Shown here: in pieces, positions 3,527 to 13,307 of the stretch
Numbering within the stretch: the stretch's first letter is position 1
How the letters are laid out: each line of letters opens with the position of its first letter
Origin: a virus
Virus record (IMG/VR): IMGVR_UViG_3300044612_003035
Location: 1 to 20,726 of that record
Strand: one strand, 5' to 3'
DNA: 20,726 bases
The notes under the pieces: generated by a model
Told to the model about the DNA's origin: nothing
The model's input: the letters and a program-made list of their open reading frames with translations, nothing else
The model's database searches: none
Translations under genes and position numbers: made by a program

Positions 3527-3784
3527 CTATTGCTGCATTGGAATCTTTGCAAACTCCTCAATCAGCTGTTGCTCAGAATAGTTTTCATATTGAGGTTGAT
3601 TTGTTTCGCAATGCTCGGGCTTCTTCTTGATGCAAACGCTTTCGTTATCAACAAAGTAATAATGCAAGCCTTCTGCTGCGAGCATGGTGAAACAGTTACC
3701 GATAGTTCGATACTGTTGGCGAGCCATTTCTTTGAGCAGATAATACTGATGCTCGGTGAGTTTGATGCTGATGGCGTAGTCCAT
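3527..3784 (-). CDS. Ribbon-helix-helix-like DNA-binding candidate
   Basis: In this 85-residue product residues 3-42 (YAISIKLTEHQYYLLKEMA, then RQQYRTIGNCFTMLAAEGL) match the strand-helix-helix pattern of ribbon-helix-helix regulators: an alternating strand with Ser/Lys, a helix ending in a basic turn, and a second helix. The remaining half is polar (KKKPEHCETNQPQYEN). A role as a small repressor or antitoxin-like protein is inferred from the pattern alone; no toxin partner is recognised next to it. The leader is C/A-rich with hardly any G. Confidence 0.68.
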   Translation of the reverse strand: MDYAISIKLTEHQYYLLKEMARQQYRTIGNCFTMLAAEGLHYYFVDNESVCIKKKPEHCETNQPQYENYSEQQLIEEFAKIPMQQ

Positions 3785-4353: not shown

Positions 4354-4557
4354 TTAGATCGATTCAATGAAACCAAGTTGGAGATCATGGAGGGGACCGA
4401 AGTCCCCCCGTGGCTTGAGCTGATACCAGTTGAGATCCCAGCCATTGGCCAGGCGGTCTTCTTTGATCAGCGTTTCGATGTCGCGAACATCATCAATCCC
4501 ACCAGAGACAGAGATCCTGATCTTGTTGGGGTTGCGGTCGCGGCGTGTGTCAGACAT
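4354..4557 (-). CDS. Hypothetical protein, 67 residues
   Basis: The product starts with a basic segment MSDTRRDRNPNKIRISVSGG and continues DDVRDIETLIKEDRLANGWD to a C-terminal LQLGFIESI. The order strand-helix suggests a small alpha/beta fold. No family recognised. It lies 26 bases downstream of the zinc-finger gene at 4584-5126 and is the last gene before the style of leader changes from CCACCTAG elements to C/A-rich leaders. Confidence 0.72.
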   Translation of the reverse strand: MSDTRRDRNPNKIRISVSGGIDDVRDIETLIKEDRLANGWDLNWYQLKPRGDFGPLHDLQLGFIESI

Positions 4558-4583
4558 GGGCGAAGGTTAAGAAAAGATTAAGG

Positions 4584-5126
4584 TCAGAGCAGCTCAAAGA
4601 GCTCCTCCATGGGCTTGTTTTCGTCAGCCACTGGCCCACCAGGGAACGCAGCAGCTGGCATGTACCGCTCCTGTGGTGCAGTGCCGTACATGGCCGATTG
4701 CCAACGAGCACGACCGGCAGACCGGTGGCCTGTCAGGTGTTCAGCGAGCATCTCAGCCGCCACTTCGAGCAGATCCTTGTAGGGATCAGCAGCGATGTCC
4801 ATTTGCGCCGCCATGGGCAGGCAAACATCGGCACCAGTGTGGAACCGGGCCATGCGCCAGATGAAATAGGCGCGGGTGTCATCGGGCCGCTTCGAGCGCA
4901 GCTTGCCTGGCTTGCGTCCCTTGACTGCCTGCACCAGAGCAGGGATGTCCGGCTTGGTGAAATGGCCAACGCCATCACACCAGATGCAGGTCTGCTCCCG
5001 GCGCGGGTAGTGCTTCCCTTCCATCGAAGTCCAGGCCTCATGGATGGTCAGCTTTGACCCCTGGCACTTGACGCAGGGCAGCGTCTCGGTGTTGATCTGT
5101 TGCTGTAGCTTGTCAGCGGTGGTCAT
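4584..5126 (-). CDS. Zinc-finger phage protein, ARFHTGAD family
   Basis: From the ATG at 5126 the protein has 180 residues. CVKC (18-21) and CIWC-DGVG (47-54) form a four-Cys zinc site similar to DnaJ-type CxxCxGxG modules. Then follow LRSKRPDDTRAYFIWRMARF (77-96) and HTGADVCLPMAAQMDI. This order is a family I recall from many phages and bacteria (C..C.G.G, RP.......YVWR.ARFH.GADV); its function is not known to me. The start at 5126 rather than the in-frame 5186 is chosen because a CCACCTAG leader copy (5132-5147) lies just before it. Possible roles include nucleic-acid binding, inferred only from the finger. Confidence 0.85.
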   Translation of the reverse strand: MTTADKLQQQINTETLPCVKCQGSKLTIHEAWTSMEGKHYPRREQTCIWCDGVGHFTKPDIPALVQAVKGRKPGKLRSKRPDDTRAYFIWRMARFHTGADVCLPMAAQMDIAADPYKDLLEVAAEMLAEHLTGHRSAGRARWQSAMYGTAPQERYMPAAAFPGGPVADENKPMEELFELL

Positions 5127-5131
5127 TGGTT

Positions 5132-5147
5132 TGTCCGTACTAGGTGG
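5132..5147 (-). promoter_or_regulatory. CCACCTAG leader element
   Basis: On the minus strand CCACCTAGTACGGACA lies a few bases before the ATG at 5126. It is identical over 16 bases to the elements at 5376-5391 and 5634-5649. The GGA inside may act as a weak ribosome binding site. Confidence 0.7.
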
Positions 5148-5148
5148 G

Positions 5149-5373
5149 TCAGTAGAGAGGGAGAATCGTTGGCGTAAACGATCCAACCCGATTGCCGTTG
5201 CTGTCGTTCAGGGTCGGATACTGACCATAACGGGGGTCCAGATAACGGCTGTCTGCTTCCAGTCTGTCTGCCAGGTCGCGAAGGATCCGGCCGACTTCCT
5301 GGGCCTGCTCATCATAGGTGTCGCCAAAGGCGGCATTGTCGACCAGCAGTGTGATGTTGATGCAATGGTCCAT
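5149..5373 (-). CDS. Conserved small phage protein, NAAF...NGNRVG family
   Basis: The 74-residue product reads MDHCINITLLVDNAAFGDTY, then EVGRILRDLADRLEAD and LNDSNGNRVGSF. This fits a small family I recall as very frequent in phages (I.I.ID.DNAAF..DP..E.ARIL..LA.R........L.D.NGN.VG). It appears to be a beta-alpha-beta protein with no catalytic motif, and I know no function. It starts directly after a CCACCTAG leader element and is 22 bases upstream of the zinc-finger gene. Confidence 0.87.
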   Translation of the reverse strand: MDHCINITLLVDNAAFGDTYDEQAQEVGRILRDLADRLEADSRYLDPRYGQYPTLNDSNGNRVGSFTPTILPLY

Positions 5374-5375
5374 GT

Positions 5376-5430
5376 TGTCCGTACTAGGTGGGGAGAGGGA
5401 TGAATCCCTCAGTGGGAGCCTAAGCCCCCA
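5376..5430 (-). promoter_or_regulatory. Intercistronic hairpins plus CCACCTAG leader
   Basis: In minus-strand order this gap holds a 7-bp hairpin (5413-5430, one G-T pair), a second hairpin GAGGGA/TCCCTC (5395-5410) and the leader element CCACCTAGTACGGACA (5376-5391). The gap between genes is 66 bases, exactly as at 5629-5694, with the same order of parts. There is no T-run, so these are not typical terminators; RNA processing or protection of the downstream cistron is possible. Confidence 0.7.
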
Positions 5431-5439
5431 GGGAGAGAA

Positions 5440-5628
5440 TCAGAGCGGGAGTTGCACCATCATGGGCACGTCATGGATGCGACGCAGCAATGTACGGCGC
5501 TCCCGTAACAATCGATCAGCAGCATCGCCAGACAGGCGAGGCAGGATCTTCTCGATGATGCGAACCCTAGCCTGCCAGGCAGGAACGTTGGGGTCGTTGA
5601 CGACAGGCAGATGTGAAAGGTCGAGCAT
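5440..5628 (-). CDS. Hypothetical basic helical protein, 62 residues
   Basis: The product starts MLDLSHLPVVNDPNVPAWQA and has an Arg-rich helical C-terminal half (RLSGDAADRLLRERRTLLRR). Nothing in it is a recognised domain. The Arg-rich helix could contact nucleic acid or a partner protein, which is only a guess from charge. It begins 21 bases after the CCACCTAG core, with the same leader as two neighbouring genes. Confidence 0.75.
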   Translation of the reverse strand: MLDLSHLPVVNDPNVPAWQARVRIIEKILPRLSGDAADRLLRERRTLLRRIHDVPMMVQLPL

Positions 5629-5633
5629 TGGTC

Positions 5634-5684
5634 TGTCCGTACTAGGTGGAGAGAGGGAGAATCCCTCAGAGGGGCGGATGCCCC
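5634..5684 (-). promoter_or_regulatory. Intercistronic hairpins plus CCACCTAG leader
   Basis: In minus-strand order: GGGGC/GCCCC hairpin (5671-5684), GAGGGA/TCCCTC hairpin (5653-5667) and CCACCTAGTACGGACA (5634-5649). The layout repeats that at 5376-5430. Confidence 0.7.
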
Positions 5685-5694
5685 TGGGAGAGAA

Positions 5695-5847
5695 TCATAG
5701 CAGCCAGAGAATGGTCACTGCTCCCAACATGATCAACAGAATAGTCTGCTGCTGTTGGAGAGCATCGATCCGCTCTGCCTGGGTTGAGGTTAACTCTACA
5801 GCCGCATCGATGATGTCGGCTTTGGAGCTGCGCTCGTTGATGTTCAT
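5695..5847 (-). CDS. Small C-tail-anchored membrane protein
   Basis: From the ATG at 5847 the product is 50 residues: a polar helical part with a short Gln run (TQAERIDALQQQQ) and a terminal membrane helix (TILLIMLGAVTILWLL) that ends the protein. An upstream in-frame ATG at 5931 would add an atypical N-terminus and lies beyond the CACCTAGAACC leader, so 5847 is preferred. The form, a coiled stretch followed by one helix, resembles small phage membrane proteins including Rz/i-spanin-like or holin partners, but nothing specific identifies it. Confidence 0.7.
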   Translation of the reverse strand: MNINERSSKADIIDAAVELTSTQAERIDALQQQQTILLIMLGAVTILWLL

Positions 5848-5858
5848 GGTTCTAGGTG
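5848..5858 (-). promoter_or_regulatory. CACCTAG leader element, short form
   Basis: CACCTAGAACC lies directly before the ATG at 5847. It keeps the core and the A after the two variable positions but lacks GGA. Confidence 0.55.
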
Positions 5859-5971
5859 CGGTGGCGGTTTCTATGTCCGCCGTGATCTGACTGTAGAGCA
5901 CCGAGGGGCGGAATCCCTGGCGATGAAACAATTGTTTAAAGTGTTAACAGAAGTACATAAATCCCGATTAA

Positions 5972-6057
5972 ATGCATGACCATGTACTGATGCAAAAGTA
6001 CACAACCATGCACCTAATAGTGCAAACCTATGTACTTAATAGTGCAAACTCATGCAC
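5972..6057. repeat. Array of four 16-bp palindromes (operator or iteron)
   Basis: Four related 16-bp units of the form GTRCA-N6-TGYAC lie at 5972-5987, 5998-6013, 6020-6035 and 6042-6057. Examples are GTGCAAACTCATGCAC and GTGCAAACCTATGTAC. The last three start 22 bp apart, about two helical turns, so bound dimers would line up on one DNA face; the first is 26 bp away. The spacers between the last three are CTAATA and TTAATA. Repressor operators or replication iterons both fit. Confidence 0.75.
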
Positions 6058-6165
6058 TTGCATTAATACATTATTCCACAGGTCCTGCCGAACCACCCAA
6101 AAAACCGCACGAATCATCAGGCCCCTTCCTTGAGAAGCGCTGCGGCGCAAGGGATCTCAGAGGGA

Positions 6166-6189
6166 TGTGACAGTGTGTAAAGTGTCACA
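6166..6189. promoter_or_regulatory. TGTGACA-N10-TGTCACA inverted repeat
   Basis: Perfect 7-bp arms (6166-6172 and 6183-6189) separated by 10 bases. Inside it, 6174-6189 reads TGTGT-N6-TCACA, one base from the CRP-family consensus TGTGA-N6-TCACA used also by cyanobacterial SYCRP1. A binding site for a dimeric regulator is inferred. Confidence 0.5.
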
Positions 6190-6209
6190 AGTACATGTAT
6201 TACGTACTT
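6189..6209. repeat. AAGTAC...GTACTT palindrome
   Basis: AAGTAC (6189-6194) and GTACTT (6204-6209) form a palindrome around an AT-rich centre and abut the preceding inverted repeat. The GTAC words are shared with the nearby 16-bp palindrome array, suggesting a related binding site. Confidence 0.5.
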
Positions 6210-6309
6210 AACTAGGGTGATTTTGGGCGGTTCCGAGCTTAGCATAGGTGATTTTACGTCAAAATTGTGTGACGATTTATGAATTGGCACATTGTTACAG
6301 GTTGTTGCG

Positions 6310-6344
6310 CACTATCAACATGTAAATCACTATCAACTATCAAC
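6310..6344 (-). promoter_or_regulatory. GTTGATAGTG repeats after terminator
   Basis: On the minus strand GTTGATAGTTGATAGTGATT is followed by a second GTTGATAGTG. The same word occurs after the terminators at 7431, 7953 and 8644. TTGATA could be a -35 box, and TGTAACAATG follows here at about 6291-6300. Confidence 0.5.
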
Positions 6345-6364
6345 AAAAATGCCCCTTGCGGGGC
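6345..6364 (-). terminator. Intrinsic terminator
   Basis: On the minus strand GCCCC-GCAA-GGGGC (6351-6364) with a GNRA-type loop is followed by ATTTTTG. It ends the unit of genes 7274 to 6378, starting 13 bases after the stop codon. Confidence 0.85.
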
Positions 6365-6377
6365 AAAATCGTTAATT

Positions 6378-6512
6378 TCAGCCAAAATAGAGTCCGTCGT
6401 CGGGTGATTCATCGGTTTCATAGCCGATTTCATCGTCTTCGGGCAGGCCATCGGCTGGTTCTTGCCATTCAAGCGGGACAATCCAGCCAAAATAAGGTGA
6501 ATCGTAGGTCAT
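6378..6512 (-). CDS. 44-residue acidic peptide
   Basis: A frame of 44 residues starts MTYDSPYFGWIVPLEWQEPA and is strongly acidic afterwards (LPEDDEIGYETDESPDDG), ending LYFG. It begins 14 bases after a CCACCTAG leader with CGGAT, and it ends 13 bases before a clean terminator, so both borders support expression. No homologue is recalled. The high acidity and small size could suit a DNA-mimic or inhibitor peptide, but that is only a possibility. Confidence 0.75.
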   Translation of the reverse strand: MTYDSPYFGWIVPLEWQEPADGLPEDDEIGYETDESPDDGLYFG

Positions 6513-6513
6513 G

Positions 6514-6553
6514 ATCCGTTCTAGGTGGGTTGGATGGGGCCCCGCAGGGCCCC
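6514..6553 (-). promoter_or_regulatory. Intercistronic hairpin plus CCACCTAG leader
   Basis: Minus-strand order: perfect 7-bp hairpin GGGGCCC-TGCG-GGGCCCC (6536-6553), then CCACCTAGAACGGAT (6514-6528) before the ATG at 6512. Confidence 0.7.
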
Positions 6554-6560
6554 GATTGCG

Positions 6561-7274
6561 TCAATTGTAGCTGATTTGGGCAGCTTTGACGCCGTGGGCG
6601 TTGATCACCACGTTTGCAGAGTCGCCGTCGCACAGTGTGCAACGCTCGCAAGTGGTTTTGGCACCACGCTCGACGCTGGCGGCACAGTGAACCGTGCCAG
6701 ATGGAGCGGGTTCGGCGGCTGGCTTGACCAGAAAGGTCCGCCAACCATGCGCCGTAGCCTCAAGATAGTCTGCCATGCCATCACAGGATGCCTGGCAGAT
6801 GCCCTTCAGGTGCTGCGCCCAGGGCTGACGCCACTGATGGGTGTAACCCGTGTGGATCCCGCAATATTGCAGAATATTGTCCCAAACCTGAGCCGGGACC
6901 ATGGCAGGATCGCCAGCGGCACCGAATCGGACGCTAGCATCGCTGAAAATGGGCCAAGCGTAACCAATATGAGGGTAACCGCCACGCTTGTAGCACTGCC
7001 ACACGCTAAGCGGGGCCTGATACCAGCGAACGTAGCAAGTTCCGTTGTTGTATCCTGCATGACCGCAGTCACCGCAGACGCTGCGGCCCCGGCCATCTTT
7101 GAAAGCCTCGTTAGGCTTGCAATCTTGGCGCAGAATCCAGATCTGCAGCATCGATCCTGTCTTGCCATTGGCAGACCTTTCGGTCAGACCCGTGACAATG
7201 CAAACGATCGGGGCCCCGTCAATCGGGCTCAGGCCCTCCCACAGGATGCGGCCGTTCATGTTGGGCTTGGTCAT
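6561..7274 (-). CDS. Conserved Cys-rich protein, HTGYTHQW family (probably DUF7227)
   Basis: The 237-residue product is the largest of the left arm. It shows WEGLSPIDGAPIVCIVTGL (12-30), RSANGKTGSMLQIWIL (33-48), CGDC (67-70), GTCYV (78-82), QAPLSVWQCYKRGGYP (86-101), GDPAMVP (121-127), HTGYTHQWR (141-149) and further Cys at 197, 209, 212 and 215. This order matches a family I recall in phages, plasmids and bacteria and believe is named DUF7227; the name should be checked. The Cys pairs suggest metal binding. Its function is unknown to me. The start at 7274 follows CTTAGAACGCG, a variant of the leader element. Confidence 0.87.
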   Translation of the reverse strand: MTKPNMNGRILWEGLSPIDGAPIVCIVTGLTERSANGKTGSMLQIWILRQDCKPNEAFKDGRGRSVCGDCGHAGYNNGTCYVRWYQAPLSVWQCYKRGGYPHIGYAWPIFSDASVRFGAAGDPAMVPAQVWDNILQYCGIHTGYTHQWRQPWAQHLKGICQASCDGMADYLEATAHGWRTFLVKPAAEPAPSGTVHCAASVERGAKTTCERCTLCDGDSANVVINAHGVKAAQISYN

Positions 7275-7326
7275 CGCGTTCTAAGAGCGAGTGAACTGCC
7301 GAGCTCGTTGCCCGACCCACCAATCC

Positions 7327-7426
7327 TAGACCATCGGCCACCCCATGGCACCGAACTTTACAATCGTTGACAATGTAACGCTCTCTTGCTCACTATCAAC
7401 AACAAACTTCATAAATCACTATCAAC
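7327..7426 (-). promoter_or_regulatory. Promoter/leader cassette C
   Basis: On the minus strand this holds two GTTGATAGTG words (7391-7400 and 7414-7426), TTACATTGTCAACGATTGT, AAGTTCGG and a leader with a short GCCA/TGGC hairpin (7337-7349). ACAATCGTTGACAAT (7360-7374, plus strand) is identical to 8591-8605 in cassette A. It feeds the gene starting at 7274. TTGATA-N15-TTACAT could be the promoter, but spacing differs between cassettes. Confidence 0.6.
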
Positions 7427-7430
7427 TATC

Positions 7431-7454
7431 AAAAAAATGGGGGCCGAAGCCCCC
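7431..7454 (-). terminator. Intrinsic terminator with UUCG loop
   Basis: On the minus strand GGGGGC-TTCG-GCCCCC is followed by A and seven T. It lies five bases after the stop of the gene at 7460-7837. Confidence 0.9.
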
Positions 7455-7459
7455 TAACC

Positions 7460-7837
7460 TCAGTACCGATAAGCCCAGCCCAGCATCCGGCAAATCCGAA
7501 GCCAGCTGGCATCGGTTATGTCACGCGGGCGATGGACGTAAACCGTCATCCCGATCACGTCATCCTGACCCATAAACCGCCACGCCGACCAGCTGTCGGG
7601 CCTGATCAGGTGATCGTCCGACTGACCCTCAAAGGTCAACCAGTCAGGGCAGCGGCCGCCAGAACCCTCGGGCCTCCGGCCTGCCATCTGGGCCAGAACC
7701 TCGCGCAGATCCCAGGATGCATGGTCAGAGTCATCCCAGAGCCTGCCCAGACAATCGACGTATCCGCGCTCTGCCGCGTCGCCATGCTCGGCTGATTCAG
7801 CCGTCATCACGTCAGCAATGCAAAAGAGCTCAGCCAT
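7460..7837 (-). CDS. Hypothetical acidic protein, 125 residues
   Basis: The product starts MAELFCIADVMTAESAEHGD and ends DITDASWLRICRMLGWAYRY. It has many Asp and Trp residues (CLGRLWDDSDHASWDLREVL) and a C-terminal beta/alpha segment (DVIGMTVYVHRPRDITDASW). No domain recognised. The start is well fixed by AAGGAGG seven to eight bases before ATG, the best Shine-Dalgarno of this arm. It is a one-gene unit: cassette B lies directly upstream and a terminator directly downstream. Confidence 0.8.
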   Translation of the reverse strand: MAELFCIADVMTAESAEHGDAAERGYVDCLGRLWDDSDHASWDLREVLAQMAGRRPEGSGGRCPDWLTFEGQSDDHLIRPDSWSAWRFMGQDDVIGMTVYVHRPRDITDASWLRICRMLGWAYRY

Positions 7838-7864
7838 GTCGCCTCCTTGGAGCGAACTACCCCA

Positions 7865-7953
7865 TCACTGTAGCCCATCGGCCAGCCCCTGGCGCCGAAC
7901 TTTACACTTATATATAATGTATCTCCCTGTAAATCACTATCAACATTGTTACA
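7865..7953 (-). promoter_or_regulatory. Promoter/leader cassette B
   Basis: On the minus strand: TGTAACAATGTTGATAGTG (7932-7953, identical to cassette A), then TACATTATATATAAGTG as a -10-like region, AAGTTCGGCGCCAGGGG and a leader hairpin GCCAG-GGG-CTGGC (7881-7893), then GATGGGCTACAGTGA. It serves the gene at 7837. Confidence 0.65.
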
Positions 7954-7977
7954 AAAAAAGACCCCCTTTCGGGGGCC
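7953..7977 (-). terminator. Intrinsic terminator with GAAA loop
   Basis: On the minus strand GGCCCCC-GAAA-GGGGGTC (one G-T pair) is followed by seven T. It lies six bases after the stop of the 50-residue gene at 7984-8136. Confidence 0.9.
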
Positions 7978-7983
7978 TGGTGC

Positions 7984-8136
7984 TCAAGCCTCACGATATC
8001 CGTCAAACCACTCCCCGTCCTTGCGGGTCTTAGGATTGCGGCAGTGGGCCTGGGCCTGCTCAAGCGTTACATTGCGTTGGATAACGCGGCTGCGCTTTTC
8101 AAGGTGGGGAGCGTAAAACCGAACGATTTCGTACAT
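7984..8136 (-). CDS. Small conserved phage protein, MYEIVRFY family
   Basis: The 50-residue product starts MYEIVRFYAPHLEKRSRVIQ and continues RNVTLEQAQAHCRNPKTRKD to GEWFDGYREA. I recall this as a widespread family of tiny phage proteins, also in actinobacterial phages (Y.I.RFY....SR.I.RGLTLEEAQAHC..P......G.WFDGY). Function is unknown to me. I prefer the ATG at 8136, with AAGGA eight bases upstream; the ATG at 8142 is only one base from the GGA and would add two residues. Confidence 0.85.
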   Translation of the reverse strand: MYEIVRFYAPHLEKRSRVIQRNVTLEQAQAHCRNPKTRKDGEWFDGYREA

Positions 8137-8143
8137 GGTCATG

Positions 8144-8180
8144 TCCTTGCTAGGTGGGTTGGAAGGGGGCCGCAGCCCCC
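8144..8180 (-). promoter_or_regulatory. Intercistronic hairpin plus CCACCTAG leader
   Basis: Minus-strand order: perfect hairpin GGGGGC-TGCG-GCCCCC (8165-8180), then CCACCTAGCAAGGA (8144-8157), which includes the ribosome binding site of the next gene. Confidence 0.75.
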
Positions 8181-8186
8181 GTATGA

Positions 8187-8504
8187 TCAGTCTGCCTCAG
8201 CGGTCAGGCAATTGCCAGGGTGAGCGTTGCAAAACTCTATGTGAGCGTGGATGTCATCCACCACAGGAGCCAGCAGCTCCTGCCACCGGGCGGCGCTCAG
8301 CTTGCGGTCAAAGGCCTGGTTTAAAAATCGAACCGGGCTGGTTGCCGGGCGGAACGTCATCCCTTTGACTGCCAGCCCCAGCAGCCTGTAGGCGGCCAGA
8401 ACCTGTACAGCGTAGAGCGTCACATCCCGGCCGTCCTTATGCCAGCCCTGCGATGCAGGGAAAGCAACGGGGATGGCGGTGGGGTCGATCACGGTTGCAG
8501 TCAT
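8187..8504 (-). CDS. Hypothetical protein, 105 residues
   Basis: The product starts MTATVIDPTAIPVAFPASQG, has a helical middle (LYAVQVLAAYRLLGLAVKGM) and ends IEFCNAHPGNCLTAEAD. The middle helix is moderately hydrophobic but interrupted by Arg and Lys, so it is probably soluble. No family recognised. GAGAGGT lies four bases before the ATG and fixes the start. It is the first gene of a two-gene unit with the 50-residue gene downstream, driven by cassette A. Confidence 0.78.
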   Translation of the reverse strand: MTATVIDPTAIPVAFPASQGWHKDGRDVTLYAVQVLAAYRLLGLAVKGMTFRPATSPVRFLNQAFDRKLSAARWQELLAPVVDDIHAHIEFCNAHPGNCLTAEAD

Positions 8505-8551
8505 GAAACCTCTCTAAGCGGTTGAATCCCGAACCTCTCGGCTCGGTTCCC

Positions 8552-8644
8552 TCACTGTAGCCCATCGCCAACCCCCTGGCGCCGAACTTCACAATCGTTG
8601 ACAATATAACCAACTCTTCATGAATCACTATCAACATTGTTACA
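8552..8644 (-). promoter_or_regulatory. Promoter/leader cassette A
   Basis: On the minus strand: TGTAACAATGTTGATAGTG (8623-8644), then GGTTATATTGTCAACGATTG, AAGTTCGGCGCCAGGGG with a leader hairpin CGCCA/TGGCG (8566-8581), then GATGGGCTACAGTGA. TTATAT is a reasonable -10, but TTGATA lies about 19 bases from it, longer than usual. Most of the cassette is shared with B and C. Confidence 0.65.
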
Positions 8645-8665
8645 AAAAAGGGGCCCGAAGGCCCC
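8644..8665 (-). terminator. Intrinsic terminator with UUCG loop
   Basis: On the minus strand GGGGCC-TTCG-GGCCCC is followed directly by six T. It ends the first two-gene unit, five bases after the stop of the gene at 8671-8931. Confidence 0.92.
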
Positions 8666-8670
8666 TGGTG

Positions 8671-8931
8671 TCAAGCATATGCTGCAACAATAGTCTCGTA
8701 GCAGTTGTCACAGGCCAGGTCCCGATCTTCATAGTTGACGGCCAGGTGGACGACGTTCCAGCCGTCTGATCCTGTTGTTGTGCCGATCTGATCCCGCTCA
8801 GTCTTGCAACAACGATGGCAGAGGCAAGCGCCGTCAGACGTGACAGCGTAACGAGGATAGAAGCCGGGCCAGGAGAACGGTTCGCGGGCCAGGGTATCGG
8901 CCAGGCGCAGGGATTTCGATTGCGTGGTCAT
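8671..8931 (-). CDS. Zinc-ribbon-like conserved phage protein
   Basis: The 86-residue product has CHRC (38-41) and CDNC (74-77), two Cys pairs about 36 residues apart as in a zinc ribbon, with extra Cys at 36 and 42. The surrounding sequence (GFYPRYAVTSDGACLC, SDGWNVVHLAVNYED, LACDNCYETIVAAYA) matches a small family I recall in many phages (YP.AV..DG..LC..C......I......DGW.P......ED....CD.C...I.SAY). Metal binding is inferred; the role is unknown. Its start follows a CCACCTAGCAAGGAA leader. Confidence 0.83.
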   Translation of the reverse strand: MTTQSKSLRLADTLAREPFSWPGFYPRYAVTSDGACLCHRCCKTERDQIGTTTGSDGWNVVHLAVNYEDRDLACDNCYETIVAAYA

Positions 8932-8936
8932 GGTGG

Positions 8937-8980
8937 TTCCTTGCTAGGTGGATGGATGGATGGGGCCCGTTGCCGGGCCC
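8937..8980 (-). promoter_or_regulatory. Intercistronic hairpin plus CCACCTAG leader
   Basis: Minus-strand order: perfect 7-bp hairpin GGGCCCG-GCAA-CGGGCCC (8963-8980), a short CATC tandem, then CCACCTAGCAAGGAA (8937-8951) before the ATG at 8931. Confidence 0.75.
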
Positions 8981-8994
8981 GTTGTCAGTGTAGC

Positions 8995-9243
8995 TCAGCA
9001 GGACCGCAGGAACGCCACAGTCTGGCTTCCCACTGGCCGCAGCTGATACCAATCGCCACAGTCGACTGTCTCGCAGCGAACGCCGGTCAAGCCCAGCGCC
9101 GCCTTGCCGGCAGCAACCACAACACGCTGGCTGGCGCCAGCAGGAGCCGAGAACTCGACCCTGCGAACCCAACTGTAGTTAGCCTCGCCACCAAACGTAT
9201 CGGTGAACTCAGCCAGCCAAACCCAAGTCTTTGAAGTGGACAT
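8995..9243 (-). CDS. Conserved small phage protein, DTFGGEANYSW family
   Basis: From the ATG at 9243 the product is 82 residues. DTFGGEANYSWVRR (15-28) followed by a helix (RVVVAAGKAALGLTG) and CGDWYQLRP matches a family I recall from phages and prophages (ETDTFGGEANY.WV, AK..LGLTG....D.GD...L.P). Function is unknown. The upstream in-frame ATG at 9372 is rejected because CCCTAGATGCG, a variant of the leader element, sits directly before 9243. It is the first gene of the leftward arm. Confidence 0.83.
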   Translation of the reverse strand: MSTSKTWVWLAEFTDTFGGEANYSWVRRVEFSAPAGASQRVVVAAGKAALGLTGVRCETVDCGDWYQLRPVGSQTVAFLRSC

Positions 9244-9473
9244 CGCATCTAGGGCGAACGACTCTGTCAATCTAGCACCCCACCCCACCCCCTGCCAACT
9301 GTTACAACATATAACTTCTTTTTTTCCTACATCGTAAACTTTTGTGAACGGGCCGCCTGATGCCTGCCGCAAAATTTTCCCAAAATCGACCTTTTTAATG
9401 GGCCGGTAGGGTGTAACAAATCCTCGTATTTATACGCCCTAAAATCATTTATAACGTCAAAAGTACAAATAAG
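9244..9473. other. Divergent intergenic region
   Basis: This 230-base gap separates leftward from rightward genes and should hold promoters for both. Two copies of the recurrent word face each other: TGTTACA at 9299-9305 and TGTAACA at 9412-9418. On the minus strand TTTACG-N18-TTATAT is a possible promoter for the gene at 9243. On the plus strand the 60 bases before 9474 are AT-rich (TATTTATACG, TTTATAACG), but no convincing -35/-10 pair or Shine-Dalgarno is visible. A C-rich run lies at 9273-9295. Confidence 0.55.
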
Positions 9474-12740: not shown

Positions 12741-13307
12741 ATGGGCTTCTACGATAATTTACCTGGATATAAAAATCCTTTAGGTGATAAGACGCCTTCT
12801 TGGGGAGGGTCAAATAATATTCCTTCTTGGGGAGGGTCAAATAATATTCCTTCTTGGGGAGGGTCAAATAATATTCCTTCTTGGGGAGGGTCAAATGGTT
12901 CTGTGGATTGGAAGGGTGGTTATGGAGTTGACAACAGTGGATTATGGGATAAATCATTTGGTCGATACAATGATCCCTCTCAAAGCTATTTAAATCAAAC
13001 AAAAAATAAATTATTTGATACGGCAGACAGAAAGCGACGAGATCAGGATTCTGGTAGAAGTGGTGGAAGTAGTAGTAGTGGTGGGGGTGTCGCCTCTCAT
13101 AGCGGAGAAGTCCTTCCTGGTTTCGGAGTTTATGAATCCGGCAAATTTGCACCTGTTGTGATTAACCCTCCAGAAAGAGGTGGCGGTAGGTTTGGACAAC
13201 TTGGCGGCATGGCAGGAGCTTTGGGTACTGGGCTTGGGATCTTTGGCCCACTTGGTAGCCTAGGTGGTTCCCTTGTTGGTGGAGTTGCAGATGAAATTTT
13301 TGGTTAA
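12741..13307 (+). CDS. Gly-rich virion candidate with PSWGGSNNI tandem repeats
   Basis: In this 188-residue protein residues about 19-53 are four copies of the nonapeptide PSWGGSNNI (the last truncated), encoded by nearly perfect 27-bp DNA repeats. A low-complexity SGGSSSSGGG linker follows. The C-terminal 40 residues are Gly-rich and hydrophobic (FGQLGGMAGALGTGLGIFGP, LGSLGGSLVGGVADEIF), a pattern with many GxxxG steps that favours helix packing in membranes. No family recognised. It begins five bases after the previous stop. Copy number of the repeat may vary between isolates or be altered by assembly. Confidence 0.78.
   Translation: MGFYDNLPGYKNPLGDKTPSWGGSNNIPSWGGSNNIPSWGGSNNIPSWGGSNGSVDWKGGYGVDNSGLWDKSFGRYNDPSQSYLNQTKNKLFDTADRKRRDQDSGRSGGSSSSGGGVASHSGEVLPGFGVYESGKFAPVVINPPERGGGRFGQLGGMAGALGTGLGIFGPLGSLGGSLVGGVADEIFG
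12795..12896 (+). repeat. 27-bp perfect tandem repeat, 3.8 copies
   Basis: The unit begins CCTTCTTGGGGAGGGTCAAA and ends TAATATT. Copies lie at 12795-12821, 12822-12848, 12849-12875 and a 21-base part at 12876-12896. The bases are identical between copies, so the expansion is recent. The length is a multiple of three, keeping the frame. Confidence 0.95.

Follow-up and report, generated by a model that had tools for sequence, protein, structure and literature searches.

What purpose is served by a regularly spaced array of short palindromes in a non-coding gap of a phage genome? The window (the whole stretch of DNA analysed, 20,726 nucleotides, or 20.7 kb) is a viral fragment of an S-EIV1-like freshwater cyanophage, in which small leftward genes occupy the part left of ~9.4 kb and the structural genes run rightward, and its large terminase and portal could both be assigned to PHROG packaging families. 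Synechococcus phage S-EIV1 (KJ410740) is the nearest isolate and the sole named relative identified by the window portal (51% identity), with a TerL that is 61–68% identical and a structural gene order shared with the window; unlike the window, it lacks the array, the 27-bp core and the heptad operators described below, and a search of S-EIV1 for a degenerate core found none. S-EIV1-like phages are widespread in metagenomes, and the window terminase matched 591 metagenomic stretches. Positions 4500–9250 form a GC-rich block (52–61%, high GC3) between flanks of ~45%, and since its genes have no detectable homologue in S-EIV1, the block appears to be an accessory module. Further along the same arm, a related contig (G004) carries DNA polymerase A and ThyX genes. 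Several other peculiarities of this lineage were recorded, e.g. an intein-like insertion of ~0.5–1.1 kb that splits terL in frame in some relatives (L084 21102–23618, the S-EIV1 terL; G002 28690–31359; L034 6733–8761) and is missing from the window terL, a perfect 27-bp tandem repeat of 3.8 copies at 12795–12896 inside ORF 12741–13307, which is probably a variable-length protein repeat, and a standard-leader-like 14-nt repeat (minus-strand CCACCTAGTACGGA) that immediately precedes start codons on the minus strand (5134, 5378, 5636, 6515, 8144 and 8938).

The non-coding gap spans ~530 bp (5848–6379), if ORF 5695–5931 begins at the conserved ATG at 5847. Three exact copies of GTRCA-N6-TGYAC are located within it, at 5998..6013 (GTACACAACCATGCAC), 6020..6035 (GTGCAAACCTATGTAC) and 6042..6057 (GTGCAAACTCATGCAC), separated by the linkers CTAATA and TTAATA, and the 22-bp period originally proposed for them is exact. 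The original prediction had counted four such units; the fourth, at 5972..5987 (ATGCATGACCATGTAC), is degenerate, with one mismatch and a position 26 bp before unit 1, and its half-site on the promoter side (minus-strand TGCATTTAATCGGG) occupies a position conserved in relatives. The exact motif is expected by chance 0.10 times per window in 100 dinucleotide shuffles (maximum 1), and 0.08 times in 500 shuffles (maximum 2). Tandem Repeats Finder (TRF) reports a 22-bp repeat at 6006–6059 (2.5 copies with 81% matches; score 80). The units therefore share a history of duplication and do not count as independent matches. GC content is 36% at 5958–6080 and 41.5% over the gap, with most neighboring genes at 50–61%. 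Of the features of a lambda-type iteron origin, at least three inverted repeats of ~16–20 bp at regular two-turn spacing and an AT-rich neighbor are present here.

Across six gap-bearing contigs (~190 kb including the window), all 12 exact copies of the motif fall inside this gap (three each in the window and G001, two each in G002 and G003, and one each in G005 and L078), in agreement with the expectation that the motif would not be common elsewhere. Five further gap-bearing relatives (G004, G006, G007, G008 and L324) have no exact unit, the exact 27-bp array word gave 0 matches in viral contigs, blastn of the gap against named phages returned no match, and an Rfam search found nothing. The nearest relative (G005/L085, 98% identical) is shorter by exactly 44 bp, corresponding to two units, with unchanged flanks, and more distant relatives have one palindrome or half-site (TGYAYTTAATMGGG) left at the promoter-proximal position, from which we conclude that a conserved site persists while the array gains and loses units around it. 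Such a copy number, ranging from 0 to 4 among relatives and differing by exactly 44 bp between near-identical contigs, would also be produced by recent tandem duplication of an ordinary site, in which case the number of copies would be functionally meaningless. We consider this very improbable, as R/Y changes occur on both sides without disrupting the palindromic arms, and G001 carries a version of its own with three exact units despite different N6 and linker sequences, which suggests selection on the arms.

What is conserved across relatives is the arrangement (core, spacing, DnaA-like box and array) and not the copy number, so that the anticipated conservation of the array holds for the palindrome of the gap, its DnaA-like box and their spacing, and fails for the number of units. 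Read 5' to 3' on the minus strand, the gap shows a terminator hairpin (6350–6365), followed by TTGATAG heptads, a −10-like element and a TGTGACA inverted repeat, then by the 27-bp core, 51–53 nt of spacing, TGTGGAAAA/TGTGGAATA and the array, and lastly by TTAATCGGG...GTTAACAC, a second −10-like element and the first gene. The core (6132..6158, minus strand, GAGATCCCTTGCGCCGCAGCGCTTCTC) is a near-palindrome with the consensus GARAYCC-N-TTGCG-C-CGCAA-N-GGRTYTC, is found in this gap of every gap-bearing relative with C or G at its center and symmetric arms, and is apparently undescribed. The DnaA-box-like site of the window (6072..6080, plus strand, TATTCCACA) has one mismatch to TTTTCCACA, the cyanobacterial DnaA box (PMC4674748), to which TGTGGAAAA/TGTGGAATA is the complement. 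Each of the 11 gap sequences that were compared has a box of this type 51–53 nt past the core, exact in six and with one mismatch in five (including the window); the gap holds one box and no cluster. The inverted repeat TGTGACA...TGTCACA (6166..6189), 7 nt from the core and kept in close relatives, and a GTAC-rich palindrome (about 6190–6208) had both been noted earlier and are both real.

The two putative −10 elements, identified by eye from the alignment, are on the minus strand at 5890..5895 (TACAGT; TAGGAT, TAGGTT, TACATT or TACCAT in relatives), for the leftward-arm promoter, and upstream of the core at 6241..6246 (TATGCT; TATGAT, TAGGAT or TAGGCT in relatives). Since the array precedes the first leftward-arm gene and has conserved −10-like elements downstream, it could be an operator, through which a cooperative phage or host regulator would control the leftward early promoter at ~5890 and the long minus-strand arm, and an array of the same format does stand upstream of a small HTH-like gene elsewhere (L113/L124/L127). 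We find this reading improbable, however, given that relatives differ in how far the array-side half-site is from the putative −10 at 5890–5895 (~55–77 nt, counted by eye), that L078, for all its different neighboring genes, retains the motif on the opposite side of the core, and that the arm already has a conserved candidate operator in the TTGATAG heptads at four promoters. These TTGATAGT direct repeats, at 6310..6344 behind the terminator hairpin in the gap, recur on the minus strand behind hairpins ahead of each small gene or operon (6310–6344, 7390–7432, 7930–7945 and 8621–8637), have a 7-bp period where tandem, persist also in relatives in which the array is not conserved, and resemble an operator common to these genes, possibly one bound by a ribbon-helix-helix (RHH) protein. 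In L078, the left arm is otherwise different and has no heptads; the core, an exact box and one exact palindrome are kept, the last on the opposite side of the core compared with other relatives, which indicates that the element travels as a unit, independently of neighboring genes.

The core is not confined to this lineage. Its left half was detected in at least 120 stretches of a viral scan, mostly intergenic and in very different contexts, and among the matches listed the core recurs in dozens of unrelated viral contigs. Outside S-EIV1-like phages, DNA up to 300 bp from the core shows a 123-fold enrichment of TTTTCCACA (Fisher p = 2.9e-10; 9 in 32.8 kb vs 1 in 449 kb, from 60 non-redundant core loci of other phages), a figure that is probably an overestimate because the control DNA is mostly coding and the core surroundings mostly intergenic, and a test whose independence is lowered by kinship, as the box-bearing loci form about five unrelated groups. 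When all 1260 permutations of its letters were compared near cores, TTTTCCACA ranked first (8 loci vs 3 for the next), and since permutations have equal composition and were counted in the same places, this control is less exposed to the coding/intergenic bias. Moreover, DnaA boxes are clustered at the core loci L248, L257 and L295, and at L225 two cores flank a box.

A large group of core loci belongs to cos-type siphophages, with terminases nearest to those of Synechococcus phages S-CBS3/S-CBS1. Among the matches listed, terS is found within ~250 bp at 37 of 86 core loci, with terL next to it; many cos-type loci have, near the core, the word GGGTCCT/GGGTCCC, which corresponds to lambda cosQ, or past the cut side its reverse complement AGGACCC; and many core-bearing contigs end exactly 56–57 or 61 nt past the core. 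S-CBS-like contigs with all of these cos features include L185, L209, L216, L223, L230, L236, L250, L268, L279, L299 and others. In these cyanosiphophages the core adjoins cos and terS and apparently has no DnaA box nearby, and its best named match is to Synechococcus phage Syn5, in the direct terminal repeat, so that the core is not exclusively an origin mark. All of this raises the possibility that the gap of the window is itself a packaging site (cos/pac), with the array as cosB-like TerS sites and the protein encoded at 1014–1535 as a candidate TerS, since that protein consists of helices throughout, has an HTH-like N-terminal part and is present in all five relatives of the set whose contigs cover that part of the arm. 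The array resembles lambda cosB in having three repeated binding sites, which in lambda are the TerS sites R3, R2 and R1 (PMC4669245). Unlike the S-EIV1-like gap, however, a lambda-type cos has a cosQ, a neighboring terS and contig ends at the expected point: the gap of the window has no GGGTCCT, only the one-mismatch words AGGTCCT and GGGGCCT; three of the S-EIV1-like contigs checked end <430 bp from the core, none of them at the predicted position; and TerL is ~10 kb away, with the nearest TerS candidate (1014–1535) at 4.5 kb and without a match to a TerS family. In addition, S-CBS1 and S-CBS3, the cos-type relatives, have no core in the stretches read, and an association with DnaA boxes is unexpected of a packaging site. 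The core was at first read as a cos subsite, an interpretation that we lowered on account of these last two observations, and we now regard packaging as unlikely to be the role of this gap.

The format of the array can be compared with known origins. When pairs of GTRCA-N6-TGYAC units at a distance of 22 bp were sought in an unbiased scan, 17 stretches outside the contig of this lineage were identified, and among representative arrays five are inside initiator-like genes, one is upstream of the small HTH-like gene mentioned above, and two are unclear; the five same-format (16+6-bp) arrays are hosted by genes with matches to O-like, HTH_36 or DnaD-like initiators. Bacterial genomes show the pattern mostly in dispersed repeats, with none seen in a cyanobacterium in that scan, so the format alone is no proof. 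One Paraprevotella metagenome-assembled genome (JAGBCQ01; loci L146, L147, L151, L160, L163, L171, L173, L176 and L183) has many dispersed GTACA-N6-TGTAC arrays with 22-bp periodicity, which apparently form their own repeat family. The O protein binds the lambda origin at iterons that are 19-bp inverted repeats and number 4 or 6 (PMC7466680), and the gap shares with such lambda-type/Stx origins near-identical inverted repeats of 16–19 bp, spaced by about two helical turns beside AT-rich DNA, as well as a variable iteron copy number. It differs in that lambda-type iterons are inside the initiator (O) gene, whereas the array here is intergenic, and in the additional cyanobacterial DnaA-box-like site and 27-bp palindrome at fixed spacing. 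With the cyanobacterial oriC it has in common the DnaA-box sequence TTTTCCACA, present as an exact box in six relatives and with one mismatch in the window; in contrast to oriC it has a single box and no dnaN neighbor, and adds the phage-specific iterons and the palindrome core.

No protein of the window stands out as the partner of the array. An O-like initiator (phrog_270 and PF13730) was not found above cut-off in the window, in eight related contigs, which are fragments, or in the complete S-EIV1. The original proposal that two RHH-like proteins bind here found no support: the model of 3527–3784 is of low confidence (pLDDT 68), with an insignificant match to AtaR as the best among RHH proteins, and 2351–2602 has no confident family match. 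We infer that the 7-bp tandem repeats (TTGATAGTTGATAGTG) near the array are a likelier target for an RHH protein than the array. The minus-strand gene at 1014–1535, which the original prediction had overlooked, encodes a candidate initiator, regulator or small terminase that matches no family; a TerS assignment found no support in Pfam, PHROG, PDB sequence or fold searches.

Weighing these observations, we hold with moderate confidence that the gap is a cis-acting DNA replication origin of an S-EIV1-like cyanophage, with the array as its phage-specific iterons, a preference that is mainly due to the enrichment of DnaA boxes near the core in about five unrelated groups. A change by two units between close relatives is compatible with iterons, which tolerate changes in copy number, and of the two options first offered for the array, cooperative repressors or iterons, the latter is now better supported and the former less so. 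At such an origin, dimers of a candidate initiator would occupy adjacent units of the array along the same helical face, host DnaA at the neighboring box would aid the initiator in opening the DNA, and the opened AT-rich DNA would then admit the phage primase and polymerase. Against an origin we count the mismatched box of the window and its being single, the lack of an O-like initiator in the searches above, the missing array and core in S-EIV1, the five gap-bearing relatives without an exact unit, and GC skew, which had been suggested as a check and gave no signal, with no cumulative minimum at the gap and likewise none in GC3 skew. A cumulative GC-skew maximum near 7 kb was rejected as an origin, as it is absent in GC3 and follows differences in base composition.

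We also propose, tentatively and with less confidence than for the gap itself, that the 27-bp palindrome, host-type DnaA boxes and lineage-specific iteron arrays make up an origin signature that S-EIV1-like phages share with unrelated cyanophage lineages. A literature search combining cyanophage, origin of replication and DnaA box found no paper. If the signature is true, virulent cyanophages would recruit the host initiator DnaA, and the presence of the palindrome beside genome ends (cos siphophages, Syn5) would link replication and packaging sites. The palindrome core would then provide a sequence handle for origin or terminus regions in uncultured cyanophages, and with a 0.5-kb candidate that carries a host-type DnaA-box-like site, it becomes testable whether cyanophages use their own initiator, that of the host, or both.
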